The position numbers and the translations under genes are program-made. From Kyrpidia spormannii (lineage in GTDB: Bacteria > Bacillota > Bacilli > Kyrpidiales > Kyrpidiaceae), in assembly GCF_002804065.1 (NCBI RefSeq), contig NZ_CP024955.1, positions 2,790,001 to 2,854,000 on the forward strand: a stretch of 64,000 nucleotides of DNA. The letters are read 5' to 3'. The notes under the pieces are model-generated. The model was not told the DNA's origin. It made no database searches and saw nothing but the letters and a program-made list of their open reading frames with translations. Of this stretch, positions 53,868 through 60,664 are shown piece after piece. How positions within the stretch are numbered: position 1 is the first letter of the stretch; each line of letters opens with the position of its first letter.

Positions 53868-55129
53868 AGACGCTTCAGGCGTACCGCTTTGCACTCGATC
53901 CTTCGCCGCATCAGGAGAGGATGTTGGCTTCCCACAGCGGAGCCCGGCGGTTTGCCTTTAACTGGGGGCTGGCATTGGTAAAAGAGCGATTGGAGGCCAG
54001 AGGACGAGGCGAAGACGTCGAAGTGCCGTGGACCCTTGCCGCCCTTCGGAGGGAGTGGAACCGGCAGAAGGAACAAGTCGCCCCGTGGTGGCGGGAGAAT
54101 TCCAAGGAAGCGTACTCGGCGGGGCTGGACGGCCTGGCCCGGGGGCTGAAGGCGTTTTTCGACAGCCGGTCTGGGAAGCGGAAGGGGCGTCGGGTGGGGT
54201 TTCCGAAGTTCCGGAAGAAGGGCCGGGGTCGGGAATCGGTGCGGTTCACGACGGGAGCGATCCGGGTGGACGACAAAAGCCACGTCGTTTTGCCCCGGAT
54301 CGGGCGGGTGAGAACGCACGAGATGACCACGGCGCTCTTGGAGCGGGTGCAAAGTGACCGGGCGCGGATTCTGTCGGCGACTGTCTCCCGGGAAGGCGGG
54401 CGGTGGTTTGTGAGTTTCACCTGCGAAGTGGAGCGGGACGCCGGGCGGCCGAAGCGCCCCCGGGACGTGGTGGGAGTGGACGCCGGGCTGAAACACCTGG
54501 CGGTCCTGTCCACGGGGGAGAAGGTGCCGAACCCGCGACCCTTGCGCAAGGCATTGCGAAAGATCGCGCGGTTGAACCGGGAGTTGGCCCGGCGAAAACG
54601 CAGAAGCCGACACTGGGAGGATACCCGTCGGCGGCTGAACCGGGCCCACGCGAGGGTGGCGAGAATTCGCTTGGACGCCATGCACAAGCTGACTCACCGG
54701 CTGGCGACCACGTTTGGCACCGTCGTGGTGGAAGACCTGAATGTGGCTGGGATGGGGCGGAACCGGCGATTGTCCCGGGCGATCTACGACGCGGGGCTGG
54801 CGGAGTTGAGACGGCAGTTGCGGTATAAATGCGAGTGGTACGGGTCCCGTCTCGTCCAGGCCCCCAGGATGTATCCCAGTTCCAAGACCTGCTCCAGGTG
54901 CGGGGCGATCAAGGAAGTCCTTCCGCTTTGGGAGCGGGTGTATCGGTGTGAAGAGTGCGGGACGGTGATGGACCGGGACGAGAATGCGGCGCGGAATCTG
55001 GCGGCTCTTGCGGCCGCCGTCGCCGGGAGTGGACCGGAGACGAAAAACGCCCGTCGAGAGGATGTAAGACCCGACTTGACCGGGCGGTCTTCGATGAAAC
55101 GGGAAGCCGGCACCGGGCAACCGGGTTAG
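53864..55129 (+). CDS. tnpB: TnpB RNA-guided nuclease of IS607-type element
   Basis: 421 residues. RuvC acids: D in VVGVDAGLKHLAVLSTG, E in VVVEDLNVAGMG, D in MDRDENAARNL; zinc ribbon SKTCSRCGAIKE and YRCEECG. N-terminal KTLQAYRFALDPSPHQERML is the usual TnpB front. ATG 53864 overlaps tnpA by 4 nt. The last 40 residues past the RuvC III motif are basic and low complexity, where an omega RNA is usually encoded. Appears active. Confidence 0.93.
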   Translation: MKTLQAYRFALDPSPHQERMLASHSGARRFAFNWGLALVKERLEARGRGEDVEVPWTLAALRREWNRQKEQVAPWWRENSKEAYSAGLDGLARGLKAFFDSRSGKRKGRRVGFPKFRKKGRGRESVRFTTGAIRVDDKSHVVLPRIGRVRTHEMTTALLERVQSDRARILSATVSREGGRWFVSFTCEVERDAGRPKRPRDVVGVDAGLKHLAVLSTGEKVPNPRPLRKALRKIARLNRELARRKRRSRHWEDTRRRLNRAHARVARIRLDAMHKLTHRLATTFGTVVVEDLNVAGMGRNRRLSRAIYDAGLAELRRQLRYKCEWYGSRLVQAPRMYPSSKTCSRCGAIKEVLPLWERVYRCEECGTVMDRDENAARNLAALAAAVAGSGPETKNARREDVRPDLTGRSSMKREAGTGQPG

Positions 55130-55212
55130 ACCGGCGCCCCTGCCCCGCAAGGGACGGGTACTTGAAACAGATGTATATGTTTCAAGTAACGGTACCGCTG
55201 AACAACATACGT
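55080..55212 (+). ncRNA. Predicted omega/reRNA at the right end of the IS607-type element
   Basis: Covers the tnpB 3' end, the GC-rich GCCCCTGCCCCGCAAGGGAC hairpin and the palindrome AAACAGATGTATATGTTT up to the right boundary at about 55211. By family analogy the guide would be the acyl-CoA synthetase DNA immediately after 55212. Limits inferred. Confidence 0.35.
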
Positions 55213-57161: not shown

Positions 57162-59006
57162 TCAGGCGAATTGTCCACGAGCAGTGTTCGGATCTTCATT
57201 TCGTTCCTCCCACAGCACGGTGTTGTATTCGACAGCCAGGTTCCTGTCTCGGGTATGGCCCACTTGCAACACAGTATTGGGATGCCGTAAACGAATCCGA
57301 ATCCTCCCGGACGGATTGTCGACTTTTGCACTGCTCTCTATACCGAACGGAGTACCCATTTCTTCAATATCGATTAAATTTTGGGCTACGAGAAATCCGC
57401 CCCGCATGCTGCCGCGTATCACGATTGAATTCCCGGCTTCCAAAGAGCTGGCGTAAGTACCAGGCCCGGTAACCACAATGCTCCCGGATGCCCTCACCGA
57501 ACTGGAGGTGATACTGGCCGCCTTCACCGTGGCGGTTTCAGTGTGTTTCATCGATTCGATGTGGAAGATGTAATCAACCAACATGTGGTGTAAAGCCATC
57601 ACATGCTGTTCAGTTATGTTGGTCCTGCCAATTCCGAACCACTTTGAGCGGATCTCACGCACGATCTGGCGATACCGATCATCTGCGTTCAGCACTCCAT
57701 CAGTCTCGTTGCAGAAGGATTGCAGAAAACGTTCCAGATCCGGATGGCGGGTGGTAAGCAGTGCGTCCGCCAACAACCCCAGGTGTGTACCCTGGTCAAT
57801 CCGCTGCCTGGCGTGACCCAACAATTCCTGGAACTCCGCTTGGAACTTCTCATATTCCACTATACCTTTTTTCAGCATCTCATAAATCCTCGTGTACACA
57901 AGTTTGGATGCTCCCGCCACGATCTGCGAACCCACAATGGCATCCTGTACCGACACACCACGTTCTCCCAGCACCGTCGAGTGGAACACACCACCATTTA
58001 CCCGCACTGTCCCCATGGCTTTGATATAGCTACCATCGAGTACCGACCCCAACACCACAACGTCCCCGTCAAATTCAACCTTCCCGTCTTTGCTGGAAAG
58101 ATCGTGGTCAATAACCAACTCCGGGATTACATCGATACGATTTTTCGTAAAGAGCAGTCGGCCACTGCGAACTGCCACGAGGCGGTCATTTACTTCTATC
58201 ACACCTTGACCCAGCGTTGGCAGCGAGCGGTGTACTGAACATGGAATCTCCCTGCCGAACACATCCCGCCCCGGCGTACCCGGTATCTCTGGTTCCAATA
58301 CAGCGACCGTTGTGCCAAGACCAATGGATGTAATGGGCATCTGACGCTGAAGAGGATCGTGGACCTTCGGAAGTTCAACCCGTCTGTAACGAGCCGCTCG
58401 GCCTGGAACGGGGGGAGTTCCCCGCAACACGATACACTCGGTCGTGTCCTTGGCCTGAGCAATGGTCTCAACTCCTGTCGGGTCAAGTACCCCGACGTAC
58501 CCCGCAGACTCCAACCGCGCCACAATTTCGCCTGTGCCCAATGGATCGGGACGCAAATCTATTGTTTCAATTTCCAGCACCGCACGATGCGCACCGTGCA
58601 TGTCTCTGAGACGATGCTCTTCACCCGGTTTTACGTCGATTCTCCCAATGACTTCCATGTTGTCCTTCGTCACTTTTGTAGAAAATTGGATTGATGGCAA
58701 ACTCTTGGCCAGCGATACCTCGATATGTTGATTTTCATGAACAACGACCTCTCCGACACATTTCTGTCCGTCAATCACGACCGTCAACCGAGGGTCGTCG
58801 GGGATAACAATTATCGCAAATGAACCTTCATCGTCAGGGTCAGAGACAATAAGCTGATTGTTCACCACAGTGACAGTTCCATGCCGCACGCTTCGTATCT
58901 CTTCATTGGATTCAAACGACGGGAATGATTGTGTCTCAGGTTCTGATGATCTTGACAGGCGAGGTTTGAAAAGCCAATGCCTTACTTTCTCCAGCAAGGA
59001 CCGCAT
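57162..59006 (-). CDS. FapA/DUF342 family protein (polymer-forming, flagellar/polarity-associated)
   Basis: 614 residues. The FapA (DUF342) core lies at about 150-460: MPITSIGLGTTVAVLEPEIP, GTPGRDVFGREIP, then a right-handed beta-helix with regular turns (KVEFDGDVVVLGSVLDGSYI, KAMGTVRVNGGVFHSTVLGE). A helical insert and a second beta-helix (SIVVTGPGTYASSLEAGNSI) follow. Such proteins form oligomeric scaffolds; FapA of Vibrio controls flagellar assembly, but the role in this organism is unknown. ATG 59006 follows GAGAGGTGAGAGA. It lies 61 nt after the EAL gene on the same strand, hence under the same riboswitch. Confidence 0.85.
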   Translation of the reverse strand: MRSLLEKVRHWLFKPRLSRSSEPETQSFPSFESNEEIRSVRHGTVTVVNNQLIVSDPDDEGSFAIIVIPDDPRLTVVIDGQKCVGEVVVHENQHIEVSLAKSLPSIQFSTKVTKDNMEVIGRIDVKPGEEHRLRDMHGAHRAVLEIETIDLRPDPLGTGEIVARLESAGYVGVLDPTGVETIAQAKDTTECIVLRGTPPVPGRAARYRRVELPKVHDPLQRQMPITSIGLGTTVAVLEPEIPGTPGRDVFGREIPCSVHRSLPTLGQGVIEVNDRLVAVRSGRLLFTKNRIDVIPELVIDHDLSSKDGKVEFDGDVVVLGSVLDGSYIKAMGTVRVNGGVFHSTVLGERGVSVQDAIVGSQIVAGASKLVYTRIYEMLKKGIVEYEKFQAEFQELLGHARQRIDQGTHLGLLADALLTTRHPDLERFLQSFCNETDGVLNADDRYRQIVREIRSKWFGIGRTNITEQHVMALHHMLVDYIFHIESMKHTETATVKAASITSSSVRASGSIVVTGPGTYASSLEAGNSIVIRGSMRGGFLVAQNLIDIEEMGTPFGIESSAKVDNPSGRIRIRLRHPNTVLQVGHTRDRNLAVEYNTVLWEERNEDPNTARGQFA

Positions 59007-59067
59007 TCTCTCACCTCTCATCCTTGTCCGTCGCCGCCAACGACACGGAGGGTGATTCTGTGACCAC

Positions 59068-60036
59068 CTACAAATCCTTGCGCAATAATTGGTGGTACAA
59101 ATGAATCAGAGTATCGAGTTCTTGGCTTTTCTGTACCACCGCCTTATCGGTCAATGAGCCGTCCCTATTCCGAGCAAGATCCGCCAACTCAGTCCTCTTT
59201 CTCTCAATTTCACTGAGCAGATCCGACAATTCACTGATCGACATCGGGCGTGACCAATAGTATCCCTGACTCACATTGACACCAGCTTCCCGAATGGCAT
59301 TCAGATCTTCGTAGTTTTCGACCCCCTCAGCAATGACTGAATTTCCGGACTCCATAAATCTCACTAAACGGGATAGAAATCGCTGTTTTGAAGAGGATAT
59401 CGAAATCCCTTGAATCACTGTACGGTCTACTTTGACGAAATCGGGTTCGAATTCAAAGAGTCCCGCAAGACTGGTGCTCCCAGCACAAACATCGTCAAGG
59501 GCTATCCGAACGCCGAGTGATCGTATGGATTTGATCATTTTCGACAACAAAGTAAGGTCATACGATATGTACTCGACGATTTCGATTACAAGTTGGTCTG
59601 GTTCACACAGTCCCTCTCGAAGCAAAACTTCGAGCCGTTCAACAAAGGACTCCTGAACAAAGCTGCTCGGCATCACATTCACGTACAAGGGAATGGAACT
59701 GATTTCAGGGGGCAACAGTCGGAGGCGATTTACACTGATAGTGAGAGCTAATAAATCGGCTTCCATCGAACGCTTGCTTTCGTAAGCAGCACGAAACCAA
59801 ACTTCCGGCGGAATAAAATGGCCGCCGTACTGAGGACGGCTTAGTGCCTCATGAGCAAAAACGACGCCCTCGGCATGATTGACGATGGGCTGATAAACCA
59901 CTTCAAGCGTTTCGTGTTTAAGGATCTCATCTACACTCCGGCAGAGGGAATTGTATTGATTTGGGTTTTTAGGGGATTTATACCCCCCCCCCCCCCCCCC
60001 CCCCCCCGGTGAGGGTTTATTTGGAAATTGATCCAA
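59068..60036 (-). CDS. EAL-domain cyclic-di-GMP phosphodiesterase with poly-Gly tract
   Basis: Hydrolyses c-di-GMP; 322 residues in the cytoplasm. All EAL catalytic positions are visible: E63-A-L in HEALSRP, N in YVNVMPSSF, E in LVIEIVEYIS, DD in IALDDVCAGSTSLAGL, K in DFVKVDR, E in VIAEGVEN. C-terminal 70 residues are coiled-coil-like. TTG 60036 is the start because GAAGGAGGG lies 8 nt upstream (60045-60053). Residues 11-18 are eight Gly encoded by a 25-G run, so slippage would shift the frame after ten codons. Preceded by a c-di-GMP-I riboswitch, followed by fapA. Confidence 0.92.
   Translation of the reverse strand: MDQFPNKPSPGGGGGGGGYKSPKNPNQYNSLCRSVDEILKHETLEVVYQPIVNHAEGVVFAHEALSRPQYGGHFIPPEVWFRAAYESKRSMEADLLALTISVNRLRLLPPEISSIPLYVNVMPSSFVQESFVERLEVLLREGLCEPDQLVIEIVEYISYDLTLLSKMIKSIRSLGVRIALDDVCAGSTSLAGLFEFEPDFVKVDRTVIQGISISSSKQRFLSRLVRFMESGNSVIAEGVENYEDLNAIREAGVNVSQGYYWSRPMSISELSDLLSEIERKRTELADLARNRDGSLTDKAVVQKSQELDTLIHLYHQLLRKDL
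59983..60007. repeat. 25-bp homopolymer (poly-C/poly-G) inside the EAL gene
   Basis: 25 consecutive C on the plus strand, thus 25 G in the coding strand, at codons 10-18. With 25 G the frame runs into the EAL domain; 24 or 26 would not. Typical of a phase-variable contingency tract. Assembly length error is possible. Confidence 0.9.
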
Positions 60037-60064
60037 TTCCTTCACCCTCCTTCGTAATGATGTC

Positions 60065-60091
60065 AAAAAGCGCCCTTTTCCTGCAGGGCGC
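60065..60091 (-). terminator. Intrinsic terminator of the riboswitch expression platform
   Basis: Coding strand GCGCCCT (60091-60085), loop, AGGGCGC (60076-60070) followed by TTTTT (60069-60065). It lies between the c-di-GMP aptamer and the EAL ribosome site, so ligand binding could choose between termination and read-through. Confidence 0.8.
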
Positions 60092-60099
60092 CTCATCCT

Positions 60100-60195
60100 T
60101 TGCGAGTGGCAACCCGGCGATCATAGGCACATGTGCCCTTAGACCCGTGGCTTTGCGTCCTAGCGTTTCCGCTAGTTTGCCCTGAGACAACTCTA
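60100..60195 (-). promoter_or_regulatory. c-di-GMP-I (GEMM) riboswitch aptamer
   Basis: The minus strand reads CAGGGCAAACTAGCGGAAAC, GCTAGGACGCAAAGCCACGG, then TCTAAGG and a P3 helix GGGCACATGTGCC, and CGCCGGGTTGCC closing P1. This matches GEMM-I: AGGGCAAAC, GNRA-type GAAA loop, GGACGCAAAGCC and the 3' GGGTTGCC. It lies upstream of a terminator and the EAL phosphodiesterase, giving c-di-GMP feedback on its own breakdown. Direction of control (on or off) cannot be told. Confidence 0.88.
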
Positions 60196-60219
60196 TCGAC
60201 CTATTCACCTTGTCCCAAC

Positions 60220-60248
60220 ATAATCCTACATTATTCGACATCTGTCAA
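60220..60248 (-). promoter_or_regulatory. Promoter for the riboswitch-EAL-fapA transcript
   Basis: Minus strand TTGACA (60248-60243), 17-nt spacer, GATTAT (60225-60220), then the aptamer begins about 25 nt downstream. A good vegetative sigma-factor match. Confidence 0.75.
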
Positions 60249-60664
60249 GCGGTCGCAGTGCGTGCTGCTGTTCGTCCGTGATATTGTCATCTTGGAACTC
60301 GTCAGTGACAAGGTCATCAGGGTGCGAAAAACGCTTACATGGTGGAGAAAGTACAAGAAACGGCAGCCGACCGGGTGAACACTTGAAAGCTTGGCCTTGT
60401 GAGACAACGGACCCCTGTTCAGCGCCTATAATGACGATCTAAAAAAAACTGAGCAGGGAAGTGATGATAGCCCTTTCATGGGCCGGACCGGAGTTCATCG
60501 TCGTTCCGCCGATGTGCTAGCATAAACACAGGTGGATGTGGCCGGCGCTCCGGGCGTCCATTGGGATCACCAAAATGCTTTCATCCAGGAAATTTAACCA
60601 CGAAGATTGGAATATAAGTCTATTAGAAAGGAATCTCTGAACAAAGGAGACGGGGAGCCGTCCA
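60249..60664. other. Intergenic region upstream of the DUF1284 gene
   Basis: About 415 bp without a recognisable gene. A plus-strand TATAAT occurs at 60427-60432 without a good -35. CGGACCGGAG and related GC-rich inverted stretches are present but form no clear known RNA. Confidence 0.4.

Follow-up and report, generated by a model that had tools for sequence, protein, structure and literature searches.

Organization of the locus

The window (the whole stretch of DNA analysed, 64,000 nt of the Kyrpidia spormannii EA-1 genome) carries on its minus strand a gene encoding an EAL domain followed by a Spo0E-like domain; a promoter, a c-di-GMP-I riboswitch, an intrinsic terminator and a Shine-Dalgarno sequence precede the gene, and a poly-G tract lies near its 5' end (Table 1). 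On the minus strand this end reads TTG GAT CAA TTT CCA AAT AAA CCC TCA CCG (GGG)x8 TAT AAA, and the eight GGG codons are followed by 304 further codons that carry both domains. The next gene belongs to the FapA family, and FapA-family genes are found downstream in A. acidocaldarius DSM 446 as well.

Table 1. Features of the EAL-Spo0E-like locus (window coordinates) and of two other G tracts of strain EA-1
Feature	Position	Strand	Remarks
Sigma-A-like promoter	60220..60248	-	-35 TTGACA, 17 nt, -10 GATTAT
c-di-GMP-I riboswitch aptamer (RF01051)	60105..60191	-	84.1 bits (gathering threshold 35)
Intrinsic terminator, GCGCCCTGCAGGAAAAGGGCGC-TTTTT	60065..60092	-	5' arm can pair with aptamer P1 3' strand
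Shine-Dalgarno, AAGGAGGG	60045..60052	-	Strong; 5' of TTG start
EAL-Spo0E-like gene	59068..60036	-	In frame at 25 G, 322 aa
TTG start codon	60034..60036	-	Ten codons, then the pure GGG codons of the tract
G-free stretch, 25 nt	60008..60032	-	Coding strand, 5' of tract
Poly-G tract, 25 nt	59983-60007	-	Candidate slipped-strand phase-variation element
G-free flank, 40 nt (TATAAATCCCCTAAAAACCC...)	59943..59982	-	3' of tract; TATAAATAYCC conserved in EAL orthologues
EAL domain (PF00563)	59245..59931	-	164 bits (cut-off 31.3); catalytic residues conserved
Spo0E-like domain (PF09388)	59095..59220	-	38.8 bits (cut-off 23); contains SQELD
FapA-family gene	57162..59021	-	3' of EAL-Spo0E-like gene, same strand
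21-G tract	L061:5027-5047 (EA-1 1229026-1229046)		93-aa ORF directly 5' of PAS-HD-GYP gene
22-G tract	L062:9321-9342 (EA-1 2939320-2939341)		Intergenic, ~140 nt 5' of chemoreceptor (MCP) gene

Active EAL phosphodiesterases require the Glu of the EAL motif, Asn, Glu, Asp-Asp, Lys, Glu and Gln. Residues E45, N102, E134, D163, D164, K184, E219 and Q239 were invariant in 16 sequences, and the domain aligns with BlrP1 (3gfx) and other solved EAL enzymes. The gene product is thus inferred from its sequence to be a c-di-GMP phosphodiesterase. The Spo0E-like domain, found in 14 of the 16 orthologues, is likewise inferred to be a Spo0A~P-phosphatase domain. The N-terminal leader is poorly conserved at the protein level. 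The fusion itself (59095-59931), which would link c-di-GMP to Spo0A, is conserved in Alicyclobacillaceae, and no paper on an EAL-Spo0E fusion was found in the open-access literature searched (incomplete coverage). Elsewhere in the window, a match to the Rfam Transposase-2 RNA (RF03015) was detected at 55096-55162 on the plus strand.

Tract length, reading frame and chance expectation

The tract consists of exactly 25 C on the plus strand (25 G on the coding strand) and is the sole G/C run of at least 9 nt in the window. In silico, a tract of 24 G gives a product of 34 aa and one of 26 G a product of 19 aa, against the full-length protein at 25 G; a long homopolymer inside the ORF thereby sets the reading frame, which satisfies the criterion for a contingency locus. 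Using a first-order Markov model of the EA-1 genome, about 45 G/C runs of at least 10 nt were expected, but only 2e-6 runs of at least 25 nt. Genome-wide pattern searches returned just three G runs of at least 10 nt (21, 25 and 22), all of them at least 21 nt long. Because so few were seen of the many expected, moderately long runs are avoided in EA-1, with three extreme ones retained as outliers.

A preliminary description, made without database searches, had reported the 25-nt run and its position after ten codons, as eight glycines ahead of the EAL domain, and both points held (by exact count and by translation). It had also claimed that slippage by one base would disable the enzyme, with which the in silico frames agree, and that such tracts are not kept by chance, which the Markov expectation supports.

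Conservation, length and frame of the tract in related genomes

The congeneric genome G001 is taken here to be K. tusciae. Family f7 was identified as Alicyclobacillaceae because its member G062 matches the A. acidocaldarius DSM 446 plasmid pAACI02 at 100%; G076 matches A. curvatus by plasmid position. The motif G12-TATRAATNYCC was present in 11 of 399 genomes of the class, every one of them Kyrpidia or Alicyclobacillaceae. In Kyrpidia and many Alicyclobacillaceae, orthologous tracts of 12-29 G occupy the homologous position between CCCYTC and TATAAATAYCC, and extra tract-bearing EAL genes were found in G090, G098, G074 and a Kyrpidia MAG (G002). Some relatives have a short or interrupted tract (5, 6 or 8 G; GGTGGGCGG) or none, and G078 has a short GGT GGG CGG in place of the pure run. 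A search of 398 genomes of the phylum for the riboswitch-to-tract pattern returned EA-1 only, the arrangement not being found elsewhere in that sample, and a profile search of genome contigs with the EAL alignment returned distant EAL domains only.

A sequencing or assembly artefact, in which a shorter run was inflated by polymerase or base-caller error, is very unlikely. Homopolymers are error-prone, and obvious poly-G junk occurs at contig ends of some Alicyclobacillaceae drafts (G069). Against this, the tract occupies one and the same site, between conserved flanks, in genomes obtained by PacBio and Illumina (K. spormannii EA-1; PMC5773743) and by Sanger and 454 (K. tusciae; PMC3236038), as well as on the finished A. 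acidocaldarius DSM 446 plasmid. The earlier worry that the tract might vary in culture or reads is largely answered by these same-place tracts in Kyrpidia and many Alicyclobacillaceae. Long homopolymers nevertheless remain error-prone in every technology, and some of the frame calls below may be wrong. G098 has two tract-bearing copies of the EAL locus 4.5 kb apart (L227), which differ by single-G indels resembling long-read homopolymer errors.

Tract length could be read at 13 loci, of which seven were in frame (ON; 25, 16, 16, 14, 18, 14 and 17 G) and six out of frame (OFF; 29, 19, 21, 18, 12 and 20 G), the least certain call being G076a, for which there is an in-frame GTG alternative. Seven ON loci of 13 do not fit ordinary in-frame constraint (P ~2e-5 if 95% should be ON). 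The tract of K. tusciae, with 29 G, is among those out of frame, although the EAL reading frame behind it remains intact. The dN/dS ratio was 0.26 between EA-1 and K. tusciae, 0.17 between two OFF copies, and 0.17-0.34 across comparisons of diverged copies, OFF copies included. Purifying selection thus acts on the downstream EAL frame even in out-of-frame orthologues, and the gene has been preserved despite the many reference copies whose tract puts it out of frame.

G063 and G073, two near-identical A. acidocaldarius-type genomes, have 20 G and 12 G respectively, with 50-nt flanks 98% and 100% identical and a coding-sequence dS of 0.014. Contigs of the drafts G009, G032, G079 and G080 start or stop inside the tract; short-read assemblies are known to break at long homopolymers. 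A variable length between close relatives with conserved flanks, and the occurrence of both frames beside a preserved downstream ORF, fulfil two further criteria for a contingency locus. That the tract is family-wide, occurs in both frames, differs between such close genomes, precedes a frame under purifying selection and terminates draft contigs supports the view of a hypermutable tract toggling an EAL phosphodiesterase. In the EA-1 cathodic evolution paper (PMC7823960), which covers only variants above 50%, none lies at a G tract, and the GG insertion given there at 1515328 lies outside any long homopolymer.

Promoter, riboswitch and terminator

A c-di-GMP-I riboswitch lies 5' of the tract in 16 of the 20 related loci scanned, which confirms for these loci the riboswitch layering put forward in the preliminary description. 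Orthologous aptamers are also present in K. tusciae and G049, and the promoter motif TTGACA ... GATTAT recurs in K. tusciae. In most orthologues pairing is possible between GGGYTGCC, the 3' strand of aptamer P1, and the 5' arm of the terminator, and in A. acidocaldarius-type genomes the two partners have changed together (aptamer GGGCTGCC, terminator GGCAGC). This pairing is strong in seven of 16 cases (shuffle fraction at most 0.02) and weak to moderate in EA-1 (0.147).

In the standard platform, pairing of the P1 3' strand is the anti-terminator. Since the P1 3' strand and the terminator 5' arm can pair in this way, ligand binding would cause termination, and the riboswitch is probably of the OFF type; the sign is inferred, and pairing strength varies. 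Class I c-di-GMP riboswitches of C. difficile are OFF switches (PMC9286219). If the sign is right, high c-di-GMP would repress its own remover, and the loop would be self-reinforcing; the feedback control suggested earlier would then not be homeostatic.

An invertible promoter of the C. difficile pdcB type was considered and rejected, the sole inverted repeat near the promoter being 15 nt long and 80% complementary. This imperfect repeat (60200-60214 / 60307-60321) surrounds the promoter and is probably fortuitous.

Other G tracts and flanking sequences

The PAS-HD-GYP gene 3' of the 21-G tract has both HD and HHEHVDGSGYP; the corresponding tract of K. tusciae (L140) has 18 G, and the small ORF is open at both lengths. 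At the MCP locus, the 22 G of EA-1 are 14 G in K. tusciae (L144). All three EA-1 tracts lie beside MCP, EAL, HD_5 or GGDEF genes, for which the probability under random placement is about 1e-6 (considering ~32 such places among 3,087 genes).

Both flanks of the EA-1 EAL tract are G-free, with C runs on the coding strand, a feature common to related tracts. Downstream flanks of the EAL, HD-GYP and MCP tracts are G-poor on the coding strand (exceptions are the G002 gene and G081), and at most 3 G per 45 nt is reached by 0.2% of random 45-mers of the window. A profile of the EAL 3' flanks matched the flanks at HD-GYP in EA-1 and K. tusciae, as well as the flank at MCP in K. tusciae (shuffle fraction at most 0.003); it matched neither the EA-1 MCP flank (0.10) nor three control tracts (L141, L142 and L145, other G tracts of these genomes without G-free flanks and motif). 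A dispersed element, an RNA feature and compositional convergence are each possible explanations of the G-poor flanks.

Proposed slipped-strand phase variation and alternative explanations

Slipped-strand phase variation of the EAL c-di-GMP phosphodiesterase is considered the best explanation (probability about 0.8), although switching within a culture was not shown. The phase-variable c-di-GMP turnover first proposed is supported by comparative evidence, heterogeneity within a single culture not having been observed. Differences in tract length and frame between genomes are shown; reversible slippage within a clone and the resulting phenotype are inferred. In the proposed mechanism, transcription would start at the sigma-A-type promoter and pass through the c-di-GMP-I riboswitch, where high c-di-GMP would lead to termination, the P1 3' strand serving as anti-terminator. 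Gain or loss of G at replication would bring the EAL and Spo0E-like domains into frame (ON, 322 aa) or leave a peptide of 19-34 aa (OFF). Cells would then fall at random into a heritable subpopulation in which c-di-GMP is low or high and Spo0A~P is altered, a random frame switch being layered on a self-reinforcing c-di-GMP sensing loop.

Some findings count against phase variation. MutS, which would damp slippage, is present in all seven genomes tested (its loss was accordingly rejected as a cause of the tracts), and some relatives lack the tract or have merely 5-8 G. The distinction between ON and OFF could also be blurred if transcription slipped, or ribosomes shifted frame, on 25 G.

A first alternative is a neutral hot spot, in which a tolerant N-terminal leader contains a short GGG/Gly motif that grows and shrinks by slippage without selected switching, out-of-frame copies being transient loss-of-function alleles. 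The short or interrupted versions in some relatives (GGTGGGCGG, 5 G, 6 G, 8 G) and the poor conservation of the leader as protein are in its favour. It is judged unlikely, since out-of-frame copies retain intact frames under the dN/dS ratios given above, runs of at least 10 nt are fewer than expected elsewhere in the genome, the tract is maintained in two families, and both further tracts likewise lie 5' of c-di-GMP or chemotaxis genes.

A second alternative is that the tract acts mainly at the RNA or protein level, as a G-rich or G-quadruplex element or a poly-Gly linker tuning translation; in a variant, a transcriptional slippage site would give a graded mixture of proteins regardless of DNA length. 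The conserved G-free, C-run flanks of the coding strand suggest a role for the nucleic acid itself, and 25 G would readily fold as a quadruplex. However, a poly-Gly linker would have mixed codons and a constant frame, whereas pure GGG and both frames are observed, and a structural element needs a constant length, which the tract does not have. This alternative, taken jointly with its slippage variant, is also unlikely. An invariant glycine run with mixed codons in relatives, named at the outset as a result that would refute phase variation, was looked for and not met, the run being almost always pure GGG and variable in length.

Within the phase-variation reading, a bolder version can be considered, in which the poly-G tract and its 3' flank, G-free and with C runs, together form a regulatory DNA element dispersed over several genes. 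The EAL-Spo0E, PAS-HD-GYP and MCP genes would then be independently phase-variable, forming a small lifestyle "phasome" conserved among thermoacidophilic spore-formers; with a c-di-GMP-OFF riboswitch ahead of the EAL copy, a single transcript would join the genetic switch to a bistable ligand loop and would also toggle Spo0A~P dephosphorylation. As a whole, the balance of evidence leans slightly against this version.

Comparison with known systems

In C. difficile, pdcB and pdcC are phase-variable c-di-GMP phosphodiesterases (PMC9286219, PMC11868660). They share with the Kyrpidia locus the random, reversible ON/OFF control proposed here for an EAL phosphodiesterase in a spore-forming member of the Bacillota, but use an invertible promoter element in place of a homopolymer in the reading frame. 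In the flgB and cmrRST operons of C. difficile, too, a single operon is both phase-variable and under c-di-GMP control, and class I c-di-GMP riboswitches there down-regulate (PMC9286219); their switch is again an invertible element, and the controlled gene is not a phosphodiesterase that removes the ligand. The poly-G contingency loci of Campylobacter and Helicobacter are intragenic frameshift switches, mostly of surface structures in host-associated bacteria. Output depends on frame at an intragenic poly-G there, as is inferred for the present locus, whereas the present target would be signal turnover in thermoacidophilic environmental Gram-positives with MutS. Phase variation is also tied to a c-di-GMP phosphodiesterase in the E. 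coli sfa operon (cited in PMC11868660), where the mechanism is epigenetic.

In the open-access literature searched, the coverage of which is incomplete, there was no report of a homopolymer-switched c-di-GMP enzyme or of phase variation in Alicyclobacillus, nor of a phase-variable phosphodiesterase behind a c-di-GMP riboswitch or in Kyrpidia or Alicyclobacillaceae. Phase-variable phosphodiesterases are already known; the homopolymer version with a c-di-GMP riboswitch, conserved family-wide, looks new. If true, it would extend homopolymer phase variation to c-di-GMP turnover in non-pathogenic thermophilic spore-formers, over two families, with the switch tied both to a riboswitch that senses this messenger and to a phosphatase domain of the sporulation pathway, and would supply a cause at the level of DNA, open to testing, for heterogeneity among clonal cells in biofilm, dispersal and sporulation. 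This would be of relevance for K. spormannii EA-1 in cathodic biofilms (PMC7823960) and for Alicyclobacillus relatives in fruit-juice spoilage.

Such loci are easily missed, because automated annotation can begin out-of-frame genes 3' of the tract. In A. acidocaldarius DSM 446, the RefSeq start of the EAL gene lies ~100 nt 3' of the tract and would drop the first EAL strand, which is how an out-of-frame copy appears to an annotator.
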